Virus record (IMG/VR): IMGVR_UViG_3300020446_000066
Coordinates: 1-26,742 of that record
Length of the DNA stretch: 26,742 nucleotides
Strand: one strand, 5' to 3'
Source of the DNA: a virus
How positions within the stretch are numbered: position 1 is the stretch's first letter; every line of letters begins with the position of its first letter. The position numbers and the translations under genes are program-made. The notes beneath the pieces are model-generated. The model did not search any database. It was not told the DNA's origin and was given only the letters and a program-made list of their open reading frames with translations. Positions 22,716 to 26,262 of this stretch are shown piece after piece.

Positions 22716-24473
22716 TCAATCTGCTACCCCTAAGACTGCTGTTGTGGAGAGTGCGTGTGGATTAGTTGTATCAAAATCTATGGCTGGTATAGAGGATTCA
22801 GATGAATTTTTAGTTCCACTTACCTGTTGAGAACCACTATTGTTACCACCACCTGTCTGAGATACAAATACCTCTGCATTATCTTCATTAAATTCACTTA
22901 TTTTATTTGCTGCATCGAGATTGCCATTTTTCACTGCTTCAATATTATTTGAATCAGCAGATACACCCTCTACTTCTTCTCCTTCTTTTTTATCTTTATT
23001 AAAAATCTTTATATCTTTCATACCAAGAGCATTCATTATTTTCTTGGCAAGATTTTTCATTACTGTTTCACCAGCAAAACCACCAATCAGAGCACCTATA
23101 AAGGCACCAGGTCCAGCACCAACACCACCAAATAATGCTCCTATTGCTCCACCAGCAATTGCACCAACTTTTGCACCTGCCATAAAACCAGCTGTTGCTG
23201 CAAGTGCTGACATTAGACCACCATCCTCACTTAATAATTCAGTGAAGAAGGTTATAAATGGTCCTAATACCTTTCCTAATAATTTACCAACACCAAGTTT
23301 GGGTAATCCCTTTGTGAGATTCATTGCCTTACTGACAACCCCAGACTTAGAAACTGCTTTTATTCCATCATCAACTAAATTTTTACCTCTGTTTAATAGA
23401 CCTTTTGCTCTTCCAAAAAAACCACCTGTCGTTGTAGGATTAGCCATCGCACCTTGAGCCATTGATGGATTTCCAACAAAGAACTTCTTAATTTTTCTTC
23501 CTTGATTAAGGAAGAAATTACTAGTTTTAGAACCTGTGACTTTTGCAACATCATCAACAGCACCTGTGACTTTCGGTGCATTAACACCTACAGCAGGTGT
23601 AAGTATACCAAATGGTTTTTTAATTACATTTGGAAGTTTTCTTAAAAAAGGTTTAGATATATTTTTTACCTTATTTCCACCAAAACCTAATATTTTAAAA
23701 GAGATTACTTGAGTAATTATTTCTCTTATGAATGCTCCTATTCCCCCAGCTCCAAGGATGCCAGCTCCCACTGTAGCTGCCTTTTTAACTAATCCAACTA
23801 ATAATACCTTTACACCAGCTAAAGCAGCTTTTAATACTCCACCAATCGCAACTCTTCCAACATTCGCACTAAAAATTCCCAATAAACCAAGAACTTTCTT
23901 CATCCCTATCTTTATAGCAGTTAAAGAACCAAGAATAACAGTTAAACCAACTAAAAATTTTGTCTTTAATCTATTGATTTTATCAACATTTCCCTCTGCC
24001 ATCGCTTGGAGTAAATCAACTCCTGTTACTGCTAACCACCCACCAGCAAGAGCATATAAAAATTTAGTTAATTGACCTAATATACCCTGAGTTTTTACAC
24101 CAATTTTTTGAACTGGTTGCATCAACGCTGATTGTATTTTTTGTTCGAGAGCACTTTCTTTACCCTCTCTTAATCCCTGCTCTGCTAATATTGCTTCTCT
24201 TCTTTGTTTTGCTGCTTCTCTCTGTCTTTCAAGTTGATCACCTAATGCTAAATTCTCTCTGACACTTTTTAAATTAAAATCTAAAGTTGCAATTTGTCTT
24301 GATATATTTTGTAATTGACCTGAAACTGATGTAAGTTTTAATGATTGTTCCTGCAATAAATCAGTTGTTATAGAATCTGGTTGTGAATTTTGTGTGGCAC
24401 CAAGAAAACTAGAAGAAATATTTCTCCTAACTGCCCTTATTCCTCCTGATATTGGTGAACCGAACTCATCCAT
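22716..24473 (-). CDS. Tail tape-measure candidate (gp29-like), 585 residues
   Basis: The protein would set tail length and be ejected with DNA. It has an N-terminal coiled coil (about 36-118, LLQEQSLKLTSVSGQLQN and on), hydrophobic segments at about 130-260 (GILGQLTKFLYALAGGWLAV, FLVGLTVILGSLTAI, GAGILGAGGIGAFI), and a glycine-zipper segment at about 420-472 (AGAKVGAIAGGAIGALFGG). These are typical of tape measures. Its length is nearly equal to T4 gp29 (590 residues), which would suit a T4-sized tail. It lies immediately after the gp26 gene and the -1-frame ORF, overlapping that ORF by eight bases, where tail-assembly chaperones are normally found. Sequence identity to gp29 is not visible by eye, so the symbol is left blank. 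Confidence 0.7.
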   Translation of the reverse strand: MDEFGSPISGGIRAVRRNISSSFLGATQNSQPDSITTDLLQEQSLKLTSVSGQLQNISRQIATLDFNLKSVRENLALGDQLERQREAAKQRREAILAEQGLREGKESALEQKIQSALMQPVQKIGVKTQGILGQLTKFLYALAGGWLAVTGVDLLQAMAEGNVDKINRLKTKFLVGLTVILGSLTAIKIGMKKVLGLLGIFSANVGRVAIGGVLKAALAGVKVLLVGLVKKAATVGAGILGAGGIGAFIREIITQVISFKILGFGGNKVKNISKPFLRKLPNVIKKPFGILTPAVGVNAPKVTGAVDDVAKVTGSKTSNFFLNQGRKIKKFFVGNPSMAQGAMANPTTTGGFFGRAKGLLNRGKNLVDDGIKAVSKSGVVSKAMNLTKGLPKLGVGKLLGKVLGPFITFFTELLSEDGGLMSALAATAGFMAGAKVGAIAGGAIGALFGGVGAGPGAFIGALIGGFAGETVMKNLAKKIMNALGMKDIKIFNKDKKEGEEVEGVSADSNNIEAVKNGNLDAANKISEFNEDNAEVFVSQTGGGNNSGSQQVSGTKNSSESSIPAIDFDTTNPHALSTTAVLGVAD

Positions 24474-24645
24474 TTCGTTCTTGTTGTGCTTTTAGATTTT
24501 CCTCTTCAATATATTGTTGGAGAAGTGAAACATAAATCTCTCTCTCCCACGGAATCATATTTTCTAGCTCTGTCAAGCTATATTTATGGTGCTGCATCAA
24601 GGCAAAATTTAGTTTATAGTATGACACTAAATCCTCATGTGCCAT
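24466..24645 (-). CDS. 59-codon -1-frame ORF, likely 'T' part of a frameshifted tail-assembly chaperone
   Basis: The frame reads MAHEDLVSYYKLNFALMQHH, then KYSLTELENMIPWEREIYV and a helix SLLQQYIEEENLKAQQERNG. The N-M-I-P-W-E-R-E and EEEN pattern resembles the second segment of frameshifted phage tail-assembly chaperones. It starts two bases after the gp26 stop and lies in the -1 frame relative to gp26, with no stop between the two frames. Its ATG lies inside a predicted stem and has no well-placed Shine-Dalgarno sequence. It could be made as a fusion to gp26 (299 residues in total) by -1 slippage, by reinitiation after the gp26 stop, or by both. Its last codons overlap the start of the tape-measure candidate. 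Confidence 0.75.
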   Translation of the reverse strand: MAHEDLVSYYKLNFALMQHHKYSLTELENMIPWEREIYVSLLQQYIEEENLKAQQERNG

Positions 24646-24675
24646 ACTTATCCGAAAAAACTCTGCAGCCCCTCT
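24618..24675 (-). promoter_or_regulatory. Candidate programmed -1 frameshift signal (SD, slippery site, stem-loop)
   Basis: On the minus strand the elements in order are AGAGGGG (24675-24669), 8 bases, the heptamer T TTT TTC (24660-24654) in the gp26 zero frame, a 5-base spacer GGATA, and a perfect 10-bp stem AGTATGGCAC/GTGTCATACT (24648-24639 with 24627-24618, one G-U pair, 11-base loop). The gp26 stop TAA begins 3 bases after the heptamer and its last two bases border the stem. All three elements match the classical dnaX-type layout. Slippage has not been measured. Confidence 0.72.
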
Positions 24676-25416: not shown

Positions 25417-26262
25417 CTAAACTATTCTTGTTCCAATTTCAGTTGATGAGAATCTCCTCGAACTATTATTTCCTAAATTTGTTCCACCATAAACGCCATT
25501 TGTACTTGAACCTGCAGTAGTGCTGTCAGATGCACCACTACTAAATGAACTTGGATTTAATATATTTTGATTATCAGCAACACTTCCTCCATCTCTTACA
25601 TTATTACCTAAATTAAATATTTCATTAAATGCTCTCTTCAAGTCTCTTGCAAGTGAAGATGATTCACCACAAATGTATCTGTCAAAACTAAATGATGCTG
25701 ATGCTTTTAATACCTGAGAACCTTGATAAGAAACCCTTGTAGAAGATAATGCCAAAGGAAATAATCCTATAAAACGATATTCTAGAAATCTATTGTAATC
25801 CCTCTCAAATTTGATAATTTTTGTTTCATTTGATTTATATGAATCTGGATAATTTAATGTAAAATGATAAGCATCACTAGTTAAATTCGTATTTGCACCT
25901 GTAACATATTCCATCCAATGCTCTAAAAACTTCATCGACTTGTATTCATTATCAACATAAAATTCTAATTGTATTTGAGTAAAATTACGTGTATGTGCAA
26001 ATCTCTCAATGACTCCTTGAAAATCTCCACGAGTATCAATTGATGCTAACGCACTACCTGGCAAAACTGCATCACTACACAAAAGTCCTACATCCTCACC
26101 AACAAAACGATCATTTACACCCTTCCTTCTTAAGAAAGAACGCAATCCATTTGCAGTTTGATTATAAGGTAAGGCAAACTTCACAAGATAATGTGAAGAC
26201 TGTGCTACATTCTGAAATCTTGGTAAAAAATCCGATATTGGTCTTGGTCTTGGTGCTGGCAC
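25417..26262 (-). CDS. Baseplate tail-tube cap/initiator, gp48/gp54-type, 281 residues
   Basis: The protein opens PAPRPRPISDFLPRFQNVAQ and continues SSHYLVKFALP, AVLPGSALASIDTRGDFQG, NFTQIQLEFYVDNEYKSMKF, FLEHWMEYVTGAN and IIKFERDYN, ending in a disordered Ser/Gly/Asn tail. This is the tail-tube-like fold used by proteins that sit on the hub and start tube polymerisation. T4 gp54 is 320 and gp48 364 residues; I cannot tell which it corresponds to. The start is GTG: no usable ATG exists upstream in frame, and the MxxPRPRPISDF start is typical. It diverges from gp4 across 32 bases holding an inverted repeat, and is followed by the TATAAATA box. Confidence 0.7.
   Translation of the reverse strand: MPAPRPRPISDFLPRFQNVAQSSHYLVKFALPYNQTANGLRSFLRRKGVNDRFVGEDVGLLCSDAVLPGSALASIDTRGDFQGVIERFAHTRNFTQIQLEFYVDNEYKSMKFLEHWMEYVTGANTNLTSDAYHFTLNYPDSYKSNETKIIKFERDYNRFLEYRFIGLFPLALSSTRVSYQGSQVLKASASFSFDRYICGESSSLARDLKRAFNEIFNLGNNVRDGGSVADNQNILNPSSFSSGASDSTTAGSSTNGVYGGTNLGNNSSRRFSSTEIGTRIV

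Follow-up and report, generated by a model that had tools for sequence, protein, structure and literature searches.

A probable −1 frameshift joins gp26 to a conserved downstream domain in a large group of T4-like phages

In a large group of T4-like phages, the genes recorded as 'gp26' and 'gp51' most likely constitute a single chaperone gene read with a frameshift. We analysed a 26,742-nucleotide viral sequence (IMG/VR record IMGVR_UViG_3300020446_000066, positions 1 to 26,742; hereafter the window) together with its relatives and, from sequence comparison, interpret the locus with a probability of roughly 0.9 as a TAC-N/TAC-NC pair resembling lambda gpG/gpGT, in which one gene gives two products through −1 slippage. 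Most ribosomes would end at the gp26 stop codon and release TAC-N (238 aa), and a minority would slip by −1 on T TTT TTC, enter the second open reading frame (ORF) and produce TAC-NC (299 aa); the slipping ribosomes would be held by a downstream stem and perhaps also by an upstream AGAGGGG. On the lambda pattern, TAC-N would coat the tape measure, whose gene is adjacent, and the T domain of TAC-NC would bring in the tail-tube protein from the gene immediately upstream; both chaperone forms would leave the finished tail. We infer that slippage takes place, how often it does so, and that the products act as chaperones.

The original prediction had placed four elements at this junction: a zero-frame T TTT TTC at the gp26 end (AGT TTT TTC GGA TAA), AGAGGGG 8 bases before it, a perfect 10-bp stem with one G-U pair 5 bases past it and a 59-codon ORF in the exact −1 frame with no stop in between, so that a slip would give a 299-residue fusion. 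All four were confirmed to the base, on the minus strand (Table 1). The 3′ end of gp26 reads GAG GGG CTG CAG AGT TTT TTC GGA TAA, and translation of the −1 frame continues to 24466, giving FRISMAHEDLVSYYKLNFALMQHHKYSLTELENMIPWEREIYVSLLQQYIEEENLKAQQERNG; its ATG-started version spans 24645..24466 (59 codons, 59 aa), and the predicted fusion comprises 236 + 63 = 299 residues with the junction peptide QSFFRISMAHED. The first stem arm, AGTATGGCAC (24648..24639), starts 5 nt past the heptamer and pairs over 10 positions with GTGTCATACT (24627..24618).

Table 1. Features of the candidate frameshift locus, in window coordinates.
Feature	Coordinates	Strand	Basis
Tail tube protein gene, GTG start, directly upstream of gp26	25417..26262	minus	phrog_45 tail tube, E 1.9e-35
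gp26, putative TAC-N (gpG-like short tail-assembly chaperone), 238 codons	24648..25364	minus	PF12322, phrog_150, hhalign
AGAGGGG, Shine-Dalgarno-like	24669..24675	minus	8 nt upstream of heptamer
Slippery heptamer T TTT TTC, zero frame	24654..24660	minus	Codons 236-237 of gp26; conserved in relatives
−1 frame C-terminal domain, putative TAC-C (gpT-like), 63 residues from the re-read Phe codon, plus stop	24466..24657	minus	phrog_634, phrog_150, hhalign
Candidate stimulatory stem-loop, 10 bp, one G-U, 11-nt loop	24618..24648	minus	Fold, covariation
Probable tape measure protein, 585 aa	22716..24473	minus	Position, features

The window gp26 belongs to PF12322 (T4_baseplate, the family of T4 gp26/gp51; E = 1.7e-75), scoring 253.9 bits against a curated cut-off of 24.5, and also matches phrog_150 (E = 1.9e-81); in hhalign its profile aligned with T4 gp26 at E = 5.4e-17. 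The −1 domain matched phrog_634 (E = 1.7e-29) and positions 232-278 of phrog_150 (E = 6.6e-7). gp26 and the T domain were aligned as two separate alignments. Structure prediction gave an AlphaFold model of gp26 with a pLDDT of 86.4, and a search of this fold against the PDB returned no significant match; the HK97 TAC (2OB9) ranked second at E 1.3 and probability 0.23, which is no more than a hint towards an HK97-type chaperone. The gp26 profile yielded nothing meaningful against PDB sequences, and no sequence relation between gp26 and lambda gpG was found in this analysis. In the gp26 alignment, some lineages carry CxxC-type, zinc-ribbon-like motifs near residue 96, where the window's clade has CPDD; Cys pairs occur in this region of T4 gp26 and gp51 as well.

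Viral-contig scans with three gp26 queries yielded relatives of the window, of P-SSM4 and of phiM19; sixteen annotated isolates were added, and removal of duplicates and truncated cases left 179 loci, which are not all independent and include many close relatives. The window itself lies outside this set; its junction is identical to that of locus L020 over the 46 columns used. A viral-contig scan with the gp26 of Vibrio phage D485 found no relative. An alignment of this junction across many T4-like phages had been proposed as a check and, once run, it revealed conservation of the heptamer, the frame relation and the −1 ORF: an in-frame T TTT TTN lies near the gp26 end in 174 of the 179 distinct non-truncated loci (162 TTTTTTC, 11 TTTTTTT and 1 TTTTTTG), and every one of these 174 has a −1 frame that continues for 58-74 residues and includes the conserved domain. 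Hosts of the phages with the site range from cyanobacteria through Sinorhizobium, Rhizobium, Pseudomonas and Aeromonas to Vibrio; the five loci without it are those of T4, Vibrio phages VP-1, D494 and K476, and contig L149. At other sites in these genes, in-frame XXXYYYZ motifs of any kind were counted at 206 of 40,605 codon positions, so conservation of the heptamer at the gp26 end is not a matter of chance.

Codon usage at the site bears on whether the heptamer simply follows from conservation of a Phe-Phe pair in the protein, as might be thought from the gp26 alignment, where F236 is invariant and F237 nearly so. Codon 236, the first Phe of the pair, is TTT in 174/174 loci, whereas TTC is common in the remaining Phe-Phe pairs of these genes (first codon TTC in 107 of 177). 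The preceding base is likewise T in 174/174, whichever amino acid its codon specifies (S, N, A, D, T or H), and at other sites in these genes 31-80% of the codons for these residues have T as their third base. The protein-motif explanation is left with a negligible probability, and the codon bias is what selection on an X XXY YYZ site would predict. Further upstream, GAGGR is found at −14 to −10 in most relatives, and the Glu codon at the AGAGGGG site is GAG 132 times and GAA 19 times, against 33% GAG elsewhere. Since other Glu-Gly pairs likewise prefer GAG (69%; 153 versus 70), a role of AGAGGGG as a selected stimulator is only suggested by this preference.

Of the 174 heptamer loci, 49 lack any ATG, GTG or TTG in the 11 codons that follow the slip, yet their −1 frame remains open and the domain is conserved, which argues for frameshifting as the source of the domain. 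In 92 loci an ATG 3-10 codons past the slip is the earliest start, and in 80 of these it stands at codon 4; the window belongs to the codon-4 group, with its ATG 2 nt past the gp26 stop codon and inside the stem. That the small ORF is instead a separate gene, translated from its own ATG either alone or coupled to gp26 termination, would agree with the proximity of this ATG to the gp26 stop, with its annotation as a gene of its own ('gp51') in the P-SSM4, Bellamy, S-H34 and phiM19 records, and with the TAATG overlaps of the Vibrio phages described below. We nevertheless regard a separate gene as highly improbable, given the 49 loci in which the whole domain is open in the −1 frame with the early start gone, the retention of the heptamer at the synonymous level, the burial of the window's ATG in the stem, and the S-CAM1, S-CAM8 and AsFcp2 records, which show no gene at the −1 domain even though these phages have it in conserved form. 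A combination of slippage-made fusion with a free T domain in ATG-bearing lineages would be compatible with the frameshift pair, and the ATG found as first start in 92 loci speaks for it; it is unlikely, considering that many lineages lack such an ATG and that in the window's clade the ATG is enclosed in a covarying stem.

Loss of the heptamer together with a small ORF bearing its own start, the case named beforehand as contradicting a frameshift, was encountered only in three distant Vibrio phages. In VP-1 (listed as Ackermannviridae) and in K476 and D494 (unclassified in their records), a gp26-family gene is followed by a −1-frame small ORF with a TAATG overlap and no canonical heptamer, an overlap that possibly reflects coupled reinitiation; the T-domain profile gave no match in these three genomes. 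A further arrangement occurs in contig L149 (IMGVR_UViG_3300049043_000112), where gp26 and the T domain lie in one frame at 1501-2391 (299 codons open) and no second PF12322 gene was found in the 236-kb contig; the single frame may reflect a fusion fixed in nature or an indel introduced in sequencing. Among other records, that of syn9 starts the −1 ORF gene internally. Overall, public records treat the pair as separate baseplate hub proteins, vary the second start or omit the second gene.

Evidence for the stem comes from folding and covariation. A 51-nt fragment containing it folds at −13.1 kcal/mol (z = −3.07 versus shuffles). Across 89 distinct junctions of the window's clade, picked by gp26 score without regard to the stem, 89.0% of stem pair cells are paired; both-side changes affect 55 cells, compared with 23.7 on average after shuffling and no more than 27 in slid versions, and 17 double compensatory branch changes (11 at pair 9) fall on the gp26 tree, against 0-5 in slid controls. 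Pair 9 joins the third base of an Ala codon to the second base of a Val/Glu/Ala codon. In distant loci the helix is mostly absent. The stem, whose conservation was to be examined alongside that of the heptamer, is borne out by covariation in the window's clade; it is a lineage-specific element confined to that clade, where it would presumably stimulate slippage. The covarying stem and the recurrent loss of the start codon are possibly new details of this system.

The same fusion could arise by transcriptional slippage, the site being a run of six to eight T. Yet the codon phase, the stem at a spacing typical of −1 frameshift sites and the covariation all fit ribosomal slippage, and a run of six T is short for polymerase slippage; we consider the transcriptional route very unlikely. 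Collectively, the conservation of heptamer and frame and the covariation of the stem support the proposal that a T4-like phage uses a lambda-style slip with gp26 as the G part. As a tentative extension, to which we give somewhat less than an even chance, the stem in the window's clade would both stimulate the slip and hide the ATG of the second ORF, leaving the fusion as nearly the sole form in which the T domain is produced; other lineages would have kept the slip site but lost the stem, the ATG or both, and T4 genes 26 and 51 would descend from such a gene by duplication and splitting.

Comparison with T4 places the fusion among known genes. T4 gp26 and gp51 both match PF12322, and gp51 matches phrog_150 to position 280 as well as phrog_634, the family of the −1 domain. 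In hhalign the −1 domain aligned with T4 gp51 residues 200-245 (E = 4.4e-5), the only part of full-length gp51 to which the small ORF was related, and a gp26 profile including the L149 fusion aligned over the whole length of T4 gp51. Each of the 12 isolate genomes with the slippery site has one PF12322 gene and T4 has two, the sole T-domain match of T4 being in gp51, in frame; this distribution identifies the predicted frameshift fusion, at the level of sequence, as the counterpart of T4 gp51, with the cyanophage 'gp51' being its C-terminal part only. The T4 pair may have arisen by duplication of a frameshift gene. One-gene genomes set against two-gene T4 give a simple picture of the frameshift gene and the gene pair as mutual stand-ins. 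T4 gp51 is needed for assembly and absent from the particle, and was described in 2010 as essential and of unknown function (PMC3004832); the comparison makes its role testable.

Gene order around the junction (tail tube, gp26, −1 ORF, candidate tape measure) parallels lambda V-G-T-H. The pair had been predicted to lie directly upstream of the tape measure, and for the 585-aa gene this agrees with its position and with TM-like segments at residues 172-192 and 208-232, but not with any detectable similarity to T4 gp29: hhalign with 20 relatives gave E 0.12 and a probability of 0.5%, and homology to gp29 was rejected. Judged by position and features only, the gene is a probable tape measure. Where the −1 ORF ends and this gene starts, the two overlap, as is usual among relatives, and its counterparts measure about 420 to 730 aa among relatives, including close ones. 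The P-SSM4 counterpart is annotated as an endolysin.

Frameshifting is reportedly kept in several T4-like groups, according to the abstract of the 2022 study by Vladimirov and colleagues. The original prediction was not aware of such a frameshift as a standard annotation for T4-like cyanophages and did not know of the 2022 publication, in which Vladimirov, Gautam & Davidson (2022, Virology 566:9-15), as cited in PMC12846349 and PMC10885494, identified the T4-like tail-assembly chaperone genes. Passages citing that work concern the same gene family as the one analysed here, with a short and a fused long gene in place of frameshifting in some T4-like phages (PMC10885494) and known polyT slippery sequences in TAC-N genes (PMC12846349). 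The principle was thus already described for T4-like phages in 2022, and the mechanism has long been known in other phages. The lambda gpG/gpGT pair and the conserved tail frameshift were reportedly the subject of Levin (1993) and Xu (2004). As in lambda, the −1 slip lies close to the 3′ end of the gene for the short chaperone, the C-terminal domain is in the −1 frame, the tail tube gene is upstream and the tape measure (here a candidate, by position) downstream. The slippery site differs, T TTT TTN not being that of lambda. In the lambda model, as set out in a 2016 review of the tail frameshift (PMC5009743), the tape measure is bound by G and GT, with T recruiting the tail tube protein; the same review treats T4 as the exception to that frameshift. 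T4 gp26 resembles TAC-N, and T4 gp51 resembles TAC-N plus the −1 domain in a single frame, but the two are separate genes on opposite strands with no slippery site. The TAC locus of Vandenendeviridae/Andersonviridae, described for phage Adele (PMC12846349), follows the same logic, with a −1 frame that is always open and a conserved polyT motif; it belongs to other phage families, and its motif is GTTTTT in place of the T TTT TTN found here.
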